A stretch of 62,570 nt of DNA from Actinomycetota bacterium (GTDB lineage: Bacteria > Actinomycetota > UBA4738 > HRBIN12). The notes below the pieces were generated by a model. That model was given only the letters and a program-made list of their open reading frames with translations, was not told the DNA's origin and ran no database searches. A program made the translations under genes and the position numbers. Positions 21,981 to 52,445 of the stretch are shown here, piece after piece; positions within the stretch are counted from its first letter, which is position 1; each line of letters begins with the position of its first letter. Where the stretch lies: the NCBI GenBank assembly GCA_035640355.1, contig DASQWI010000027.1, positions 1 through 62,570 on the forward strand, given 5' to 3'.

Positions 21981-22925
21981 GTGGAGCCGACGCCGCCCCA
22001 GCCGCCCGCGCCGACCGTCGAGGTCTGTTACCGGCATCCGAACGAGCAGACGCGCGTTCACTGCACTCGCTGCGGCCGCCCCATCTGCCCTCAGTGCATG
22101 ATCCCCGCCCCGGTCGGCTACCAGTGCCCCGAATGCGTCGCCCAGGCGCGCCGCGAGTTCCGGCGCGGCCCGGGACGACCGTTCCGCGGCGGCGGGGTCA
22201 CCGTCACCAAGGCCCTCCTGTACGCGATCGCCGCCGTCTTCGTCATCGAGGTCCTGACGGGCGGCCCGCGCGCGCTCTTCGAGGGTCCGAACGCGGGCCG
22301 GCTGATCGATCTCGGCGCGATGCAGCCGTTCCTGATCGCGGACGGTCAGTACTGGCGCTTGTTCACGGCGATGTTCCTCCACGCCGGAGTGCTCCACATC
22401 GCGTTCAACGCGTATGCGCTGTGGCTGTTCGGCTCGATCGTCGAGTCGAACCTCGGACGCACGCGCATGGTGGTGATCTACGTGCTGTCCGGCTTCCTGG
22501 CAAGCGTGGCCTCGTACGCGTTCGGACCGGAGAGCTCCGTCGGCGTCGGCGCTTCGGGCGCGATCTTCGGCATCTTCGGAGCGTTCATCGCGTTCAACTA
22601 CCGGCGCCGGCACCTGGCGATGGCCGAGGCGAACCTGCGGTGGGCGGGGATGCTGATCGTGCTGAACATCCTGCTCGCGTTCGCGTTCGGCGGGCGCATC
22701 GACTGGCGTGCCCATCTCGGCGGCCTCATCGCGGGGTTGGCGGCCGGCACGTTCGCGGAGGGATGGGGCACGAGATCGCAACGGCGCCTCGTGCAGGTGG
22801 CCGAGCTGGTCGGCCTCGTCGCGCTCGGCATCGCACTCGTCGTGTGGAGAACAGCGGAGATCCGTGGCCTCCCGTTCTTCGACGAGGGACTCGCGTTCTT
22901 CCAACAGCTCGCCGAAGGCTCATAG
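21981..22925 (+). CDS. Rhomboid intramembrane serine protease with zinc-finger N terminus
   Basis: 314 residues. The first 60 carry a B-box-like zinc module: CYRHPNEQTRVHCTRCGRP, then ICPQC and YQCPEC. Six or seven membrane helices follow. The catalytic Ser is in VGVGASGAIFGIFGA and the catalytic His in WRAHLGGLIAGL; FLHAGVLHIAFNAYALW is the conserved loop/helix 2 region. It cleaves transmembrane substrates, identity unknown. GTG 21981 follows a leaderless-type -10 box. Confidence 0.92.
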   Translation: MEPTPPQPPAPTVEVCYRHPNEQTRVHCTRCGRPICPQCMIPAPVGYQCPECVAQARREFRRGPGRPFRGGGVTVTKALLYAIAAVFVIEVLTGGPRALFEGPNAGRLIDLGAMQPFLIADGQYWRLFTAMFLHAGVLHIAFNAYALWLFGSIVESNLGRTRMVVIYVLSGFLASVASYAFGPESSVGVGASGAIFGIFGAFIAFNYRRRHLAMAEANLRWAGMLIVLNILLAFAFGGRIDWRAHLGGLIAGLAAGTFAEGWGTRSQRRLVQVAELVGLVALGIALVVWRTAEIRGLPFFDEGLAFFQQLAEGS

Positions 22926-31164: not shown

Positions 31165-32814
31165 TTATCGTTCGCAGCCTCTCTTCACCCGCGCACTTCG
31201 ACACACGTCGATACCGCGACCGCCGATCGCAGTATCGGGCCGTCTGCCACCCCGGAGCTTGTCGTTGCCGCGACCGCCTCTCATGCGATCATCACCGGCA
31301 CCGCCCAGAACCAGATCCCGACCGCCGCGGGCGCGGATGACGTCGTCCCCGCCGCGGCCGCAGATGACGTCCCGGCCCGCGGACCCGACAAGCTCGTCGT
31401 CCCCGGCAGTCCCGATGACCTGGTTTCGGCTGTCGCCCTCGAAACCCGGACACACGTCCCAGGTCTTGGTGACTTGGTCGCTGCAGTTACCTGCGGGAGC
31501 GCCGGCCGGATCGCCAGCGGCCCGCTCGCACTCGTCCACACCTCCCGTGGTCGGCAGGCTGGCCGTGATCGTCTGGGTCCCGGTCTCGGTCGTCTGCGTG
31601 GTTGTGTCCGCGGTGGCGCGTCCGTTGTCGTCGGTCGTCGCGGTGACCGTCGATCCGCCGCCCACGAACGTGCCGACTCCGCTCTCGGTGAACGTAACGC
31701 TCACGCCCTGAACGGGGGCTCCTTCTCGGTCGGTGACGACGGCCGTGACACGGTGGACAGTTCCCGGAGCGTTCGTAGCCTCCTCGGGCCTGGCGTCGAC
31801 GTTCCGGGCCTCCAGACTGCCCCAGGTCTTGATGACCGTGTCGGTCTTGTCGTCGCTCTCGGTCGCATCGACCGCTTCCTCGCACTCTCCGCCGTCGTTC
31901 TCCGCGCCGGCGGGGTTGAAGACGTTGTCGACGTCCTCGTCGATCCAGAAGCAGATGTCGGCGGCCCCGGCTTGCGACTCCGTCGCTGCGATGGTGACCG
32001 TGCACCTGCCGTTCCCACCCGTCGTGCAGGCGTCGTTGAAGTCGGATGTGCCCGCAGCCGCCGAGTTGTCGGGGTCGTTCGCGCCGTTCAGGTTCTCGGC
32101 GTCGATCCTCGCCCCGGAGACCGGCGCGTCGGGATTGGGCGCCGTGTCGATGACGGTGCACGTGTAGGTCTCTCGCGACCCCGATCCGGTGACGGGGTTG
32201 GTCTCCGTGTCGTTGCCGCTCGCGTCGTCACAGTCCAACACTGTGCTCGCGGGGAGAGCCGCGACCCACGTCTTCGTCACGACGTCGGTGGTGTCCGGCT
32301 CCGCCGTGCCGCCAGGAGCGTCGACACCGCCACTCGGCTCCTCGACGGACGGGTTCCCAGCGTCGGGCCCCTCGGCCTGGTCGAGCTCACCGGTGAGCGT
32401 GGCGTTGTCCTTGTCGTGATCGATCCAGCCGTCGATCTCATCCGTGCCCACGACCGTGCTCGAGTACGAGATGGAACAGCTGCTGTTCCCAGAGGTGATG
32501 TCGCACGTGAAGTCGGGCGTCGCCGGGGAGTAGGCATCGGGCGTATCCGGGTCGCCTGGCCCGTTCACCTCGAAGTCGATCTCGATCGTGCCCGAGGTCC
32601 CGTCCGCCGCGGCGTCCAACGTGGCGGTTACGGAGTGGGTAGTGGCGACGGGGTTGTCGTCGGTCTCCGGCGTCAGCTGGAGCGTTCGCGAGCCGTGATT
32701 GGCCACGGCAACACCGGCCATCGGAACCACCAGGACGCTAAGGGTCAACAGAGCGGTCGAGAGCGCCGTGGAACGCCTGCTCCCTCGTGGGATCCGCGCA
32801 ATGGCGACAGTCAT
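31165..32814 (-). CDS. Secreted Ig-like protein with C-terminal RTX repeats
   Basis: 549 residues. A Sec signal peptide (about 1-38) is followed by three Ig-like modules, each ending with a related phrase ([36 protein letters not shown]). The last is invasin/Big_1-like: [20 protein letters not shown]. Residues about 455-535 are calcium-binding RTX nonapeptides ([32 protein letters not shown]). The C terminus is [17 protein letters not shown] 32814 has a GGAAGGAGG site. Probably a cell-surface adhesin or matrix protein. No type I secretion genes are nearby. Confidence 0.85.
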
Positions 32815-32976
32815 CCGGCCCCCTCCTTCCGGCAGCGCCGTGACATTCGCCTCCTGGCAAACGCAACACGGAGCGTGTTCTCTGTAGTAAACAACGTGCT
32901 CAGACGGCCAAAGGTTGCGAGGATTCGAGGCCGATGCTCGTCCTGCTGCGGAGGCCTCAGCCCACCAGGTGGCGGC

Positions 32977-32982
32977 TAGGAT
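32977..32982 (+). promoter_or_regulatory. -10 box of the DUF1996 gene (leaderless type)
   Basis: TAGGAT, 8 nt before GTG 32991. It supports that start over the upstream ATG 32934. Confidence 0.5.
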
Positions 32983-32990
32983 GGGCCGCC

Positions 32991-35069
32991 GTGAAGCGTG
33001 TGCCCTGGCCCACCTCCGCGGTGGATCGCTCTCGACGCGTCGGCGTCATCGCTGCCGTCGTCGTTGGCAGCCTCCTGCTGGCATCCCTGGTGACGCCACC
33101 GTTCGAGGCCGAAGCGGCGGGGGGCGTTGGGCAGTTCGTCGTCCGTTGCAGGTACACACACACCCTGCAGGACGATCCGATCGTGTTCCCCGGCCAACCC
33201 GGCCTCTCACACTCGCACGATTTCTTCGGCAACAGGTCCGCCGACGCGTTTTCGACGGTCAGCGAGCTCCTGTCCAGCCGGACCACCTGCCGGCCGTCGA
33301 GCGACACCGCCCCCTACTGGGCACCAACGGCATTCATGAACGGCAAGCGGATCGAGCCGAAAGCCATGCGGATCTACTACCTGGGGAACGCGGGACAGCA
33401 CACCGAGACGATTCCAGCCGGGTTGAAGGTCATCGGCGGGAACCGCGATGCCGTTTCGGCCGGTGACAATCCGCACGTCCAGTGGTACTGCGGGGAGACC
33501 CGTGAGGTGAGGACGCCCCGTCGCGACGCTCCCTATGACTGCTCGCCGTGGTCGCAGTACGCGTTCGTGGACGGGATCATCGCGATCGTCAATCTCCCCA
33601 ACTGCTGGGACGGCGTCGGTCTCGAGTTGGGGAGCGTGGCGTATGAGGTCGGTGGAGTCTGCCCAGCGGGGTTCCCGCACGTCCTTCCTCGCCTCAGCCA
33701 ACGCATCCACTACGGGGTCATGAACCCGACGAATGCGGACGGGTCGGTGGGGCTCACGCTCTCGAGCGGTCCCTACTGGTCCATGCACTCCGACTTCTGG
33801 AACACGTGGCAGCAGGAGCGCCTGGACGAGCTCGTCCAGACATGCTTGGTGGAAGGCATTCACTGTGGGGGGGTCGACTCGTCGGCCTCGCTGGCGTGGG
33901 CGCGTCAGTTCGGCACCAGCCGGTACGACCTCGGGTACGCGGCGACGGCCGGGCGCGGCGGTCCGTACGTCGCCGGGTTCACCAACTACCAACTCACTCA
34001 GGCCTACCGCCGCCTGTCGGACGCCTTCGTCCGCGCGTACGACAGTGATGGCAAGGTCCGTTGGACGCGACTGTTCGGGTCGACGGGGATCGACCAGGCC
34101 CTCGCCGCGAGCGCGGCCGGCAACCGGGTGTACGTGAGCGGCTTTACCGACGGACGCCTGCCGGGTGAGACCGCCCGCGGTCGTGACGACGCGTTCGTGG
34201 CGAGCTTCGATTCGTCCGGCCATCTCGAGTGGCTCACACAATTCGGAACGCGAGCCGACGAGCAGGCGACGGCGATCGCCGCTACACCCGCATCCGGTGT
34301 GTACGTGGCCGGCTGGACGGACGGAGTTGTCAGACCGGGAGCGGGGGCGAGGGGACGGGACGCGTGGATAGCCAAGCTTTCGCCTAGCGGCACCCGCGTG
34401 TGGATCCGCCAGTTCGGTAGCGCGGGGACGGACGAGATCCGCGCACTCGGCCTCCGCGGCATCCATCCGGTGACGGCCGGATGGACGGACGCATCGCTGC
34501 AGGGCGGCTCCTCGGTCGGGGACTCGGACGCCTTCGTCCGCGCGTATTGGTCAGACGGGCGAGTGGCATGGACGCAGCAGTTCGGGACGATCGGCAATGA
34601 CGTCGCCACAGCGGTTGCAGGATTCAAGCGGCGGGTGTTCGTGGGCGGATCCACGAGCGGGACATTCCCGGACCAGGAGGCCTCGGGCGGTCTGGACGCG
34701 TTCGTTCAGGCGATGGATTCCAACGGCTCCCCGACGTGGAGCGACCAGTTCGGGACCGCGGCCGACGACGATGCCGCAGCGATCGTTGCTGTGCGAAGCG
34801 GCGTCTACGTCGTCGGATCGACGCTCGGAGCCCTGACGACGGACCCCGGCCTGCTCGGCGAGACTGACGTGTTCGCCAGCCGCTATATGCGGAAGGGAGG
34901 AGCTCCGATCTGGACCATGCAGCTCGGGACGATCGACTTCGACCAGGCGTACGGTGCGGCGATCGATGCCACGTCGCTGTACGTCACGGGCACCACGCAT
35001 GGAACCTTCGAAGGTCAGAACTACGCGGGCGACCGGGACGCGTTCTTGCTCCGCCTACGGTTCACGTAG
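32991..35069 (+). CDS. Secreted DUF1996 protein fused to SBBP beta-propeller
   Basis: 692 residues. A signal anchor ([18 protein letters not shown]) is followed by a DUF1996 domain (about 45-290) with [38 protein letters not shown], and [11 protein letters not shown]. From about 295 to the end run seven SBBP-type blades of the form QFGT..D.A......VYVAG.T.G (for example [40 protein letters not shown]). DUF1996 is found mostly in fungi and actinomycetes, where it binds or modifies cell-wall polymers in ways not yet clear. The blades suggest surface contacts. Confidence 0.87.
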
Positions 35070-35134: not shown

Positions 35135-36850
35135 TCAGTTCTCGCAGCCGGCGACCGAGTCTCTCCCCGGGCCGTCCTTGCAGGTGTCGTTGCCCGGACC
35201 GCCCCTGAGGCGATCGTTGCCGGCGCCCCCACGGAGGGTGTCGTTCGCGGCTCCGCCCCGCAGGGCGTCGTTGCCACTGCCTCCTCGGAGGGCATCGTTC
35301 CCTCCGCCGCCACGGGAGGCATCGTCGCCGGCCCCGAGTCTGACGGAGTCGTTACCCGTGCCGCCATTGGCGGTGTCGTTCCCGCTTCCGCCGCCGAGCG
35401 TGTCGTCGCCGTCGGCTCCTGAGAGGTTGTCGTTACCGCCTCCACCACGAAGCGTGTTGGCAGCGCTGCTCCCGACAAGCGTGTCGTCGTGCGTCGACCC
35501 CGTCGCGCTCTCAACCGCGGACAGCGTGTCGGAGCCCTGACCCGAAGCGGTTCCGGCTGACACGTCGACGGTCACCGCGGCGGCAGCTCCCGCATACGCC
35601 GCGGTGTCCGAGCCGTTCCCGCCGGTGAGCGTGTCGTTGCCGTCGCCGCCGGTAAGGACATCGTTGCCGTTGGCCCCGTTCAGGACGTTCGTTCCCGTCG
35701 TGCCGGTAAGGGTGTCGTTCCCGTTGCCACCGGTAGCGTTCTCCGTGTTCGTGATGGTGTCGGTGCCCGCGCCAACCGTGTTTTGGGCCGTCGCGAGCGA
35801 GAGGTTCACGGTGACGGCGGCGTTCGAGCCTGTGTAGCTCACGGTGTCGGTCCCTGCGTCGCCGTTGATCGTGTCGTTCCCGGCACCGCCGATCAGGGTG
35901 TCGTCGCCATCCCCGCCCGAGAGGCTGTCGTTACCGGCGCCGCCGTTGACCGTGTCGTTGCCCGCACCGCCGCTGATGGTGTTGTTGATGGTGGAACCGG
36001 TCAGTGTGTCCGCCCCGGAGCCGCCGGTGAGGTTCTCGAAGTTCGAGATCGTGTCCGTCCCCGCTCCTCCGGTGTTCTGAGCGGTTGTCGTACCGAGGGT
36101 AACGGTGACGGCGCTCGTGACCCCGGCGTATGTCAGCGTGTCGGTACCGGCCCCGCCGTTCATCGTGTCATTGCTGGTGTCGGTGCCGCCGTTGATGGTG
36201 TCGTTGCCGTTGCCACCCGTGAGGTTGTCGCCTCCCGCCTGGCCGTTGATCGTCATGGCCGAAGCGAAGGCGCTACCCGTGGTCGGCGTGCCTGCACCTG
36301 CACCTGAAACCGTGTCACCCCCGTCACCGGCATTCACGACGAACGTCTCGGTGTCGCTCACGGTGATGTCATTGCTCCCCGTGGCGTCGAGATTGATCGC
36401 GGTGCTGCCGAAGACGATGGTATCGGCTGCCGTGTCGCCGGTTATCGTGAGCGTGTCGGTTCCGCCCTCACCGTCAAACGAGAAGTTGATCGCATCGGGC
36501 CAGGACGCGGTTCCCGCCTGGCTGATGGTTACTGAGTCGTTGCCATTCGTCCCGACAATGTCGATCGCCGTGATATCGCCCGTGTCGAGAACGATTGCGG
36601 CGTCACAAGGAGCGCTGTCGGTGTCGTTCCCGTTGACCCGGATCTCATTGCTGGTCCCAACAGTGAAGGTAAGTGCCTCGCTTGCCGCCATCGTAACGTC
36701 GAGATCGGAGGCCGGGGTGTTGTCGCACGTCGCGGCCGAGGCCGGCGGCGCCAACACCAGCATGATCAGCAGGATCGCGGAGGATAGAACGAGGATCGAA
36801 GCCAGTCGGCGTCTCGTTTCACCTTCAGTGGGATACCGTCGATCGAACAT
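35135..36850 (-). CDS. Secreted RTX calcium-binding repeat protein
   Basis: 571 residues. Signal peptide 1-39 (ends PPASA). An N-terminal beta region (about 40-200, DIVGTNGNDSVTISQ) is followed by more than twenty RTX nonapeptides of the GGxGNDTxx form, e.g. TGGNGNDTINGGT and RGGAGNDRLRGGPGND. Single-line spacers such as YAGVTSAVTVTLGTTTAQNT occur four times between repeat blocks. The C terminus is CKDGPGRDSVAGCEN. The repeats would fold into a calcium-bound beta-roll outside the cell. ATG 36850 has GGGAGGGGG upstream. Confidence 0.9.
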   Translation of the reverse strand: MFDRRYPTEGETRRRLASILVLSSAILLIMLVLAPPASAATCDNTPASDLDVTMAASEALTFTVGTSNEIRVNGNDTDSAPCDAAIVLDTGDITAIDIVGTNGNDSVTISQAGTASWPDAINFSFDGEGGTDTLTITGDTAADTIVFGSTAINLDATGSNDITVSDTETFVVNAGDGGDTVSGAGAGTPTTGSAFASAMTINGQAGGDNLTGGNGNDTINGGTDTSNDTMNGGAGTDTLTYAGVTSAVTVTLGTTTAQNTGGAGTDTISNFENLTGGSGADTLTGSTINNTISGGAGNDTVNGGAGNDSLSGGDGDDTLIGGAGNDTINGDAGTDTVSYTGSNAAVTVNLSLATAQNTVGAGTDTITNTENATGGNGNDTLTGTTGTNVLNGANGNDVLTGGDGNDTLTGGNGSDTAAYAGAAAAVTVDVSAGTASGQGSDTLSAVESATGSTHDDTLVGSSAANTLRGGGGNDNLSGADGDDTLGGGSGNDTANGGTGNDSVRLGAGDDASRGGGGNDALRGGSGNDALRGGAANDTLRGGAGNDRLRGGPGNDTCKDGPGRDSVAGCEN

Positions 36851-36914: not shown

Positions 36915-37021
36915 ACCAACGTCCAGTCGGGGCAACCAGTGTCACAGAAGTGGGGCGACCCAATAGACCCCGCCGGAGATCGTCTGGTTCCGACGAAGCG
37001 CCGCCGACGCATCGAGACGGT

Positions 37022-38650
37022 TCAGGCCTCCGACAGCTTCATGCCTACTGAGTACAACGACGTTCCGTCGAGCCAGAACCGAAGTCGCAGTACGAACGTT
37101 CCCCCGTGGAGCGGAAGAGTATCCGTGGTCGCGGGGTCGACTGAGGAATCTTGTTGTTCCGCCAGTGCATAGCTCCCCGAGAACTCATACGTGACCCCCT
37201 CGCCCTTGGCGCCGCTTACGGAGGTAAGGAATCCCCTCCCGTCGAAGCGATAGGTGCCGTCTGGCGCGTCCACCCATAGCCACAGCCCCGTCATGCCGGA
37301 CGAGTCGATCATCGAGCCCCAGTACTCCACATGCACCCATTCCGTCCGTGAACCGCCGCTATCCGATCGCGGCGCGACGGCGGTCTCCGAGAAGACCACC
37401 TGCTGTCCCGCTCTGCCGGTGACCTTCGACGAGGTCCGCTCGAATTGGCCGGCTCCGAGTCCGACAGTGTCAAAGCTCCAGGCCGGCGGCGGCGGGACCG
37501 TTGGGACGGGGTCGGGAGATGGTTCCTGCGTCGGCTCCGGCGACGGCGACTCCGTCGGTACCGGCGAAGGCGTCTCGGAAGTAACCGGCGGTGAAACCGT
37601 CGGGCTGGGCTCGACCACCTCCTCCGCCTCGATCACCAACGGCGGGACCAGGGCTTCCTTTGGCGTGGACTTCTCGATCACTCGCTCTCGCTCGGGCTTC
37701 GGCTCGATCACCTTGGGTGGCTGTGGCGACGGCTGAACCACAGCAGGCGACGCCGTGGCCCGGGCGCCCTGGCGATCGGCATCTCTATCGTGCTTGGCGA
37801 TGGCGGTGGCCCCGACCGTCACACCTCCGGCTACGAGCAGGGTCATCCCGGCCGCGATCACCCGCTCGCCGAACCCACTGCTGCTCGTCGTGGCAACGAC
37901 GCTTTGGGTCGCGGCGGACGTGACCACCTCTGGCACCGCCGTTTGCGCGGCCTGGAAGGTCTGTCCCGCGCGATCCGCCACGCGTCGGACCGTGTCGGCC
38001 ACTCGCACAAGCCAGAGCAGCGGGAGGAAGGCCACGCCTGCGAGACCGCCGCGCTCGGCCACCTTCTGCATCCACCGCCTTCGGAAGCTCCCCTTCGCCC
38101 GGTGGATCAACGCCTTCGCCTGCGAAGAGCTGATCCCCATGGCGGCACCAATGTCGCGATGGGAGCGGCCCTCGAGCTCGCGAAGGATCAGCGCGTGTCG
38201 GTGCGTGTCGGGGAGATCGGAAAGCACCGAGAGCACCAGGTCGCGCTGCACCAAGCGCTCGAAGGCCTCCTCGGGCCGGTCCGCCGGGTCGACGTGATCG
38301 TGCTCGTCGACGGCATTGTCGTCGTGCACCGGACGCCGGGCTCTCGCGCGGATCATGTCCAGCGAGACGTTGGTCGCAATCCGGGAGATCCATGGCTGGA
38401 GCTTGTACCGACCGTTGAACCGGTAGAGGCCCTGGAAGACGCGGATCATCGTCTCCTGGAGGGCTTCCTCCGCGTCGTGCTGATTCGCCAGCAGGCGTCG
38501 GCAAACGTGACGAGCGAGCCCGCCATAGCGCTTGTGGATCTCGACGAACGCCTCGGGGTTACCGGCCTGGAAGTCCAGGACGAGCATGCGGTCGTCTAGG
38601 GAGTCGTACTCCCCTGTGCCGCGGCGAACGTCGTTGAGCCGAATGACCAA
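37022..38650 (-). CDS. Membrane-tethered ECF sigma factor with outer C-terminal domain
   Basis: 542 residues. Region 2 (about 25-105) has EEALQETMIRVFQGLYRFNG and LQPWISRIATNVSLDMIRAR; region 4 (about 135-195) has LSDLPDTHRHALILRELEGR and the helix-turn-helix DIGAAMGISSSQAKALIHRA. A strong membrane helix follows at about 262-285 (VIAAGMTLLVAGGVTVGATA), then a Pro/Ser/Thr/Glu linker (about 300-390) and a C-terminal beta-rich domain (about 390-542) that must be outside. The start is TTG 38650 with GGAGG 6 nt upstream. It is divergent from an M23 peptidase. No anti-sigma gene adjoins, so the fusion may do that job. Confidence 0.85.
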   Translation of the reverse strand: MVIRLNDVRRGTGEYDSLDDRMLVLDFQAGNPEAFVEIHKRYGGLARHVCRRLLANQHDAEEALQETMIRVFQGLYRFNGRYKLQPWISRIATNVSLDMIRARARRPVHDDNAVDEHDHVDPADRPEEAFERLVQRDLVLSVLSDLPDTHRHALILRELEGRSHRDIGAAMGISSSQAKALIHRAKGSFRRRWMQKVAERGGLAGVAFLPLLWLVRVADTVRRVADRAGQTFQAAQTAVPEVVTSAATQSVVATTSSSGFGERVIAAGMTLLVAGGVTVGATAIAKHDRDADRQGARATASPAVVQPSPQPPKVIEPKPERERVIEKSTPKEALVPPLVIEAEEVVEPSPTVSPPVTSETPSPVPTESPSPEPTQEPSPDPVPTVPPPPAWSFDTVGLGAGQFERTSSKVTGRAGQQVVFSETAVAPRSDSGGSRTEWVHVEYWGSMIDSSGMTGLWLWVDAPDGTYRFDGRGFLTSVSGAKGEGVTYEFSGSYALAEQQDSSVDPATTDTLPLHGGTFVLRLRFWLDGTSLYSVGMKLSEA

Positions 38651-38713
38651 GGTAGGCCTCCATAACGCAACGCCCCGAGCAGCCGGAAAGTTGCGCCGTC
38701 GACCCCGAAATCA

Positions 38714-51066: not shown

Positions 51067-52071
51067 CTAGTGGCGGTGCCTCACGCGAGGTGAGACATCC
51101 TTCAAGCAGACGCTGTCATCTTCCAGCGTGAGCTTAGGCGCCAGGGCCCGATACTTGCCAGGCCTGTCCTTGATCGACGCCTTGTACTTCCCAGCGTCAG
51201 TCGTGGTGACAGATGCGACGTTCTTCCAGCCGCCACCCTTCTTCCTGCGCTGGACCTTGACCGTAACCCCTGCCATGCACTCGGCCGTGTCGTCCGCGAC
51301 CGTCACCCGGCCCTTGGCGATGAGGTGCTTCCGCAGGCTGAGCGAGACGCTCCTCGCGTGCGTAGTCGGGCCGGCCGTGCAATCCGGCGGCGGCACCTGG
51401 AAGGACTCGGTGCTGAAGACCGGATTGGCGGTAACTCCAGTGTCCACCGAGATCGGTCCATCGGCGGAGCCGGATGGCACGATCACACTGAGCGACGTGA
51501 CATCATCCACGTCGGGGACAGTGTGCGTGGCCAATTGTCCCGCCCCGTACGGGTTGAAGAAGACGTCGGCTCCCACGAACCCAGGCTGAATCAGGTTCGT
51601 CCCTGTGATCACGACCGTGGTGCCAGCCACGCCACAGTTCGGCACGAACGATGCGATGGTCGGGGCGCATGCACCGGCGCCATTCGTGGAAAGGAACGTG
51701 CCTGTCGTTTCGGCGGGGGTCCCACCCGCGTGAGTAGTGACTTCGATCGTGAAAGCCGTACCCGCGAGGAGGGGCGGAGTCTCGACCCACATCGTGGCAT
51801 CGTCGATGACCAAGAAATCATTCGCCGGGGTGGCCACGTTCGCCGGGTCCAGGAAGTTCACCGTGTAGCCGGCACTCACAGGAAAGTCGTCGAAGCCCGT
51901 TCCCGTGAGCACAAGCACACAGCCTCCGGTCGCGGGGCCGCTGGTCGGCGTGAACGTCCCCACCGTCGGCTCGGCCGCAAAGGCCGGAGCCTCAAAGCCA
52001 AGGACGAGCAGAGACGCCCCGACTACGACTCCCATTGCGCGTCGACTGATTCGACGCTTCGTCAAACTCAT
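51067..52071 (-). CDS. Secreted protein with two IPT domains (gene 2)
   Basis: 334 residues from ATG 52071, which has GAGAGGAC upstream; the longer frame to 52143 lacks a site. Signal peptide about 1-33 (VLGFEAPAFAA, near-identical to that of IPT gene 1). Two IPT repeats: PTVGTFTPTSGPATGGCVLV and PTIASFVPNCGVAGTTVVIT. The C-terminal domain starts SVSLSLRKHLIAKGRVTVAD and ends SPRVRHRH, plainly homologous to that of gene 1, with an internal QRRKKGGGWKNVASV strand. Cell-wall bound or released surface protein. Confidence 0.85.
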   Translation of the reverse strand: MSLTKRRISRRAMGVVVGASLLVLGFEAPAFAAEPTVGTFTPTSGPATGGCVLVLTGTGFDDFPVSAGYTVNFLDPANVATPANDFLVIDDATMWVETPPLLAGTAFTIEVTTHAGGTPAETTGTFLSTNGAGACAPTIASFVPNCGVAGTTVVITGTNLIQPGFVGADVFFNPYGAGQLATHTVPDVDDVTSLSVIVPSGSADGPISVDTGVTANPVFSTESFQVPPPDCTAGPTTHARSVSLSLRKHLIAKGRVTVADDTAECMAGVTVKVQRRKKGGGWKNVASVTTTDAGKYKASIKDRPGKYRALAPKLTLEDDSVCLKDVSPRVRHRH

Positions 52072-52445
52072 AACGCTGTCCTCTCTTTCCAAATCGGCTT
52101 TCCTACCCTTACTCCAAGTTCCATGCGTCTCCCTTCTCTCCACTCCTTTCTGGCTCGAGCCGCCTCACCTAGGGGCGCACGCGGCACAAAGCCATCCAAG
52201 GCGGGGAATTTCGAAACCCTAATATCCCGGGCCCGTGCGGGTCAAACCTCTTCCCGCACACCGCTTTCCCCGCGCCTGTCCTCTTCGACCCCCACCTCAA
52301 TGGGGCAACCAGTACCGATAACGACTCTCCAGGGGAAAGGTTGCGCACGGAGGTACGAAAGAGGGGAAATCGAGGCTGACTGTAGGCCCTATGGGCGAGG
52401 CGATCCCCCGTGCGTGGGACTTGCCCCGTCACCTTGACCGAATCC
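52072..52445. other. 374-bp gap upstream of IPT gene 2
   Basis: No gene. It contains the half-site CCCTAA at 52217-52222, a loose TTGACC-like box on the minus strand near 52240, and the 12-mer GGGGCAACCAGT at 52302-52313. That 12-mer is also found upstream of the RTX gene at 36929-36940. No terminator for the LuxR gene at 52446 is clear. Confidence 0.5.

Follow-up and report, generated by a model that had tools for sequence, protein, structure and literature searches.

ECF gene, its domains and its relatives

The window, i.e. the whole stretch of 62,570 nucleotides that was analysed, carries on its minus strand an ECF sigma factor gene (37022..38650) whose product continues into a C-terminal membrane helix, a Pro/Ser/Thr linker and an outer beta-rich domain. 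The gene is one uninterrupted open reading frame of 542 aa. It starts with TTG, where the homologue in genome G004 has ATG at the same place, and a Shine-Dalgarno sequence GGAGG (38657..38661, minus strand) lies six bases from the start; the initial annotation had reported both TTG and GGAGG. Sigma region 2 (residues 40-106; 38333..38533, minus strand) matched Sigma70_r2 (Pfam PF04542, E 6.6e-15) and region 4 (residues 137-186; 38093..38242, minus strand) matched Sigma70_r4_2 (PF08281, E 1.2e-9), so that the earlier statement that both regions are complete held. The best NCBIfam match was TIGR02937 sigma70-ECF (E 1.5e-27), and the protein has regions 2 and 4 only, both complete, as expected for ECF (group 4) sigma factors.

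Region 4 is followed by a helical connector of about 75 aa, which leads to the membrane helix. A model of low confidence places a helix at residues ~203-238 (37937..38044, minus strand), and the predicted helix 204-238 holds a hydrophobic stretch at 203-221 (KD 1.71) that was absent from the initial annotation. This connector is a candidate inhibitory or membrane-surface helix. The predicted membrane helix (residues 264-282; 37805..37861, minus strand; Kyte-Doolittle mean 1.81) is of moderate hydrophobicity and its flanking charges give no clear orientation; membrane insertion is a prediction. By composition, the helix is followed by a Pro/Ser/Thr-rich linker of 109 aa (residues 283-391; 37478..37804, minus strand), which confirmed the presence of the linker, though it had been put at about 90 residues; the 121 residues past the helix are about 40% P, S or T. 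The chain ends in the outer domain of ~150 aa (residues 392-542; 37025..37477, minus strand), predicted to be all-beta. A single Cys lies within region 2 and none from region 4 to the membrane helix. The Pfam search of the protein gave no anti-sigma match, and its sequence has no zinc-finger anti-sigma motif. The domain matches and helix 264-282 agree with the earlier reading of a one-protein ECF sigma factor with a predicted membrane anchor and an outer domain.

Four near full-length homologues, which belong to three GTDB families within the phylum, have 30-47% identity. Those in G004 (47%) and G002 (42%), which are other genera of the same family, and those in G035 (35%) and G027 (33%), which represent two other families, all can be aligned over almost their whole length. 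In a second species of the genus (G001), the last 184 residues are encoded at a contig edge, with 80% identity. Between the two species, dN was 0.13 and dS 0.32 for linker plus outer domain, and 0.16 and 0.44 for the outer domain alone (NG86); judged from these rates, the outer domain is under purifying selection. The initial annotation had itself raised the possibility of a frameshift joining two genes, and the near end-to-end homologues answer it. Nothing but the unusual domain order would suggest that a sigma gene and a secreted-protein gene were fused by an assembly error or a frameshift. However, this is ruled out for practical purposes by homologues of nearly full length that several genomes carry independently, by the single open frame and by the selection on the outer part; as the match extends over almost the whole length in other genera and families, the joining of sigma and outer part is not an artefact. 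A scan of genome contigs returned only ordinary ECFs besides records that are apparently the G004 and G002 contigs, and two homologue records were MAGs of uncultured Actinobacteria/Actinomycetes.

A hydrophobic helix lies 60-75 residues (up to 100) past region 4 in all homologues examined, being weaker or truncated in two of them (G027b and G091). The outer parts of the distant members G150, G237 and G131 are alignable as divergent relatives, and in G042 (L078) and G209 (L077) the sigma part and helix are kept while the outer domain is swapped for D-x-D-N-D-G-like repeats. The ECF C-termini at these two loci contain repeats of the form C-x-D-x-x-D-N-D-G-D, and the repeats resemble those of ECF-adjacent secreted proteins in G027 (L070) and G131 (L075). 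Second ECF paralogues in G027 (L071:8358-9458) and G131 (L076:8335-9444) have neither a recognisable outer beta domain nor the promoter motif described below.

The outer domain proved to be tied to this sigma factor. With a profile made from eight outer domains, nine of the 396 phylum genomes searched carried the domain, each time in the ECF protein; the match in G001 was its partial ECF copy, and the only others were two marginal matches to giant proteins of one genome. The genome of the window has one copy. The domain had been described as about 150 residues rich in beta structure with no nameable similarity, and our searches led to the same picture. Pfam gave nothing above cut-off (weak matches only, DUF6540 at E 0.038 and Beta-prism_lec at E 0.14), in a PDB-sequence profile search a biofilm-associated surface protein (7dm0, E 0.00058) matched in part, over 45 residues, which we do not rely on, and Foldseek with the low-confidence model returned nothing significant (best VtrC, E 0.13). 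AlphaFold2 predicted an all-beta domain with a mean pLDDT of 58, the other model reached 43, and both are of low confidence; the full-length prediction was built on three sequences and is of poor quality.

Neighbouring genes and a promoter-like motif

The neighbours of the ECF gene in the window are RTX, DUF1996, M23 and OsmC-like genes. A secreted RTX protein (35135..36850, minus strand; PF00353, E 1.4e-48) is encoded directly downstream, after a gap of 171 bases, and is possibly co-transcribed with the ECF gene. The stretch between them contains GGAACC-N16-GGTC and a weak terminator-like hairpin (36923-36998, minus strand), which on sequence could be a separate promoter or an attenuation signal; GGAACC-N16-GGTC is common to the second species too, but within a generally similar region. 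The second RTX gene (31165..32814, minus strand) encodes a secreted Ig-like plus RTX protein, a predicted target, which matched the ECF-adjacent protein of G150 (40% over 190, BLASTP) and also those of G035, G237 and G131. A gene on the opposite strand (32934-35066), flanked by the two RTX genes, encodes a secreted protein with a DUF1996 domain and beta-propeller repeats and is kept in the second species (L080). A further predicted target is a secreted IPT/TIG protein (51070..52143, minus strand), whose C-terminal module recurs in the ECF-adjacent protein of G027 and in another secreted protein of that genome (BLASTP). The shared module reads VKVQRR..GxWK...GKYRA-like in the window TIG protein and at both G027 loci (L070:6196-8673 and L071:11640-13571), one of which also has a GCAAC..CGTT motif upstream.

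The linkage to secreted proteins extends to the relatives. The next same-strand gene after ECF encodes an RTX protein in the window, G001, G035 and G237, and a signal-peptide protein with Ig-like or unassigned repeats in G002, G027 and G150. In G131 a comparable gene lies one predicted ORF further downstream, and on the 8.6-kb contig of G004 no secreted-protein gene adjoins ECF. Judged from the gene tables, no anti-sigma gene was seen beside ECF in the window or the relatives, and no protease gene beside it in the relatives. The window encodes a rhomboid protease (21981-22922; PF01694, E 4.7e-38), which the initial annotation had suggested for the release of the sigma factor. We do not favour this partner, because it lies 15 kb from the ECF gene and was not seen next to ECF in the relatives, and because M50 site-2 protease homologues are encoded elsewhere in the genome, likewise unlinked to ECF.

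A new finding is that the promoter-like motif GCAAC-N16/17-CGTT lies ahead of ECF and secreted-protein genes. It is common to the ECF upstream regions though the proteins are as low as 30% identical, and ECF promoters typically have an AAC/CGT layout. A generic ECF-style pattern was searched first and then the sharper form, in 350 bases upstream and against dinucleotide shuffles. The sharper motif preceded 7/12 ECF genes (shuffle mean 0.05, maximum 1), a count that is partly circular because this form was chosen after seeing the sequences. It also preceded four of eight genes downstream of ECF (shuffle mean 0.04, maximum 2), with a fifth, in G131, visible but outside the region tested for that count. 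On the opposite strand of the ECF and downstream-gene upstream regions there were no matches. The motif was missing upstream of the ECF genes of G004, G237 and G091 and of the second paralogues G027b and G131b.

The rest of the genome served as an independent check. GCAACYT-N14/15-CGTT had nine sites in the 2.79 Mb of the window's own genome, against two for a reversed control pattern. Three of the nine lie inside genes, and the other six lie between genes, each directed towards one, namely ECF, the second RTX gene, the TIG gene, two further signal-peptide proteins and a gene that by its sequence encodes a polyprenyl glycosylphosphotransferase of exopolysaccharide synthesis (EPS transferase). 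Leaving out the ECF site, 5/8 sites are intergenic; under the assumption of a 12% intergenic share of the genome, the binomial probability is ~0.001, and under that of 20% it is 0.01. The motif is also present in other genomes, some of them without the ECF, where single matches fall mostly in coding sequence, as by chance; since such sites occur in many genomes, the genome-wide count alone is weak, and as they dominate, the counts in genomes with and without the ECF differ only modestly.

The predicted autoregulatory promoter is GCAACTTT-N14-CGTT at 38669..38694 (minus strand), ahead of the ECF gene. Further predicted ECF promoters lie at 32893..32918 (minus strand) for the second RTX gene, conserved in the second species, and, as a motif match, at 52320..52344 (minus strand) for the TIG gene. 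The initial annotation had proposed promoter mapping of the RTX and M23 genes. The motif was found at ECF and at the second RTX gene, but not ahead of the adjacent RTX gene, either in the window or in G001; the suggestion for the RTX genes is partly borne out. The M23 gene was dropped as a target, there being no motif ahead of it.

Comparison with known fused sigma factors

ECFs that carry a membrane anchor and a proline-rich extension outside are already known, namely in ECF52 and ECF53. Fused membrane sigma factors have hardly been studied: SCO4117 was called the first characterised ECF52, and proteolytic release has been shown for IutY alone among the fused ECFs. IutY (ECF243) of Pseudomonas putida is released by Prc and RseP (PMC8999054). 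SCO4117 of Streptomyces coelicolor appears to activate its own gene, and its excision was proposed (PMC5826349, PMC8999054). In ECF53 and ECF48, the C-terminal membrane segment is thought to act as the anti-sigma part (PMC8999054).

Like SCO4117, the window ECF is an actinobacterial ECF that continues into a membrane region, then a proline-rich extension and finally an outer domain; in the window protein, the membrane helix and the proline-rich stretch after it are read from sequence only. However, it has no zinc finger between region 4 and the membrane helix. The outer domain appears to be different: a counterpart of the carbohydrate-binding C-terminal domain of ECF52 was not recognised in weak Pfam matches or in a PDB fold comparison, which gave nothing significant with a low-confidence model. 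The motif of SCO4117 is CSGYN-17bp-SRHA, in contrast to GCAAC-N16/17-CGTT here, and the window ECF is linked to secreted Ig-like/RTX genes. ECF53 and ECF48 are likewise ECFs fused to a C-terminal membrane segment, but they are described with a zinc finger and one to two membrane helices, whereas the window protein has a predicted helix and no zinc finger. IutY also combines sigma and membrane regulator in one chain, yet it serves Gram-negative iron cell-surface signalling with a TonB-dependent receptor, and its outer domain and taxonomy are unrelated to those of the window ECF, whose RTX, DUF1996, M23 and OsmC-like neighbours do not form a TonB-receptor iron signalling operon. The window family differs from ECF52/ECF53 by its lack of a zinc finger, its outer domain, its motif and its neighbourhood, though a named group for it may exist among the 157 published ECF groups.

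A protein of another actinobacterial family (L177, in G055) has a sigma part, a zinc finger, a membrane helix, a Thr-rich linker and an Ig-like part, and probably belongs to the ECF52/53 kind; its sigma part is very diverged, and because of long branches a tree did not resolve its relation to the window family.

Proposed mode of action and alternatives

We consider it fairly probable that the protein is a membrane-tethered, self-amplifying ECF sigma factor for surface proteins, which is probably released by proteolysis. Support from the sequences is strong for the anatomy and moderate for the target set, and the mechanism beyond these is modelled on the precedents of IutY and SCO4117. The sigma half would lie in the cytoplasm, and the connector and one membrane helix would lead to the extended linker and the beta-rich domain outside the cell. 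In the resting state, sigma would be held away from RNA polymerase by its tether, perhaps with help from the connector helix packed against the sigma domains. When the outer domain senses a change, the sigma half would be freed, for which regulated proteolysis is the most likely route. Freed sigma may recognise GCAAC-N16/17-CGTT at its own promoter, giving positive feedback, and at a small set of genes for exported Ig-like/RTX, TIG and repeat proteins and for the exopolysaccharide sugar transferase.

The lack of a zinc-finger inhibitor leaves two options, tethering alone or the connector helix as a minimal inhibitor. The initial annotation had seen in the protein a sigma factor and a transmembrane anti-sigma in one: there is indeed one anchored chain with no anti-sigma gene beside it, but in place of a zinc-finger motif only the connector of ~75 aa was found. 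That residues ~190-260 nevertheless form a true fused anti-sigma domain, minimal and zinc-free, is a possibility to be taken seriously, if a doubtful one. The predicted helix 204-238, a comparable hydrophobic helix in three family-f1 sequences and the extensions described for ECF48/52/53 and IutY (PMC8999054) are consistent with it. However, neither a Pfam anti-sigma match nor a zinc-finger motif was obtained, and the connector is poorly conserved outside family f1 and modelled with low confidence. Alternatively, sigma could work at the membrane while tethered and uncleaved, like ToxR/CadC-type factors, with the outer domain acting by conformation or oligomerisation. A single membrane helix with a long connector would suit this, no cleavage site was identified, and the relatives' gene tables show no protease gene beside ECF. 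We regard it as unlikely, since a sigma factor has to be loaded on the core polymerase and travel with it, since the genome encodes M50 and rhomboid proteases, and since proteolytic release was demonstrated for the fused ECF IutY and proposed for ECF52 (PMC8999054).

Another question is whether the ECF protein itself reads the motif. Some family members have no motif upstream and the genome encodes at least a dozen other ECF-like sigma factors, so that another sigma factor or regulator of surface proteins could read it, with the ECF gene merely one of the targets. This is quite unlikely, because distant relatives have the motif at ECF and at neighbouring genes, because its AAC/CGT layout is ECF-typical and because positive autoregulation is common for ECFs (PMC5826349).

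With its predicted promoter, its predicted targets and its lack of a zinc-finger inhibitor, the family offers a compact system for a direct test of tether-only sigma inhibition, and a way into the regulation of RTX/Ig-like surface proteins in Actinomycetota that are poorly studied and known from MAGs. More speculatively, and with considerable doubt, it may represent an undescribed ECF group, tether-inhibited and zinc-finger-free, in which the outer domain monitors a calcium-binding Ig-like/RTX coat built by the same sigma factor, i.e. a one-protein feedback sensor of cell-surface assembly. The D-x-D-N-D-G-like repeats in the outer parts of two relatives, which occur also in secreted proteins beside the ECFs of other members, hint at calcium or direct contact.
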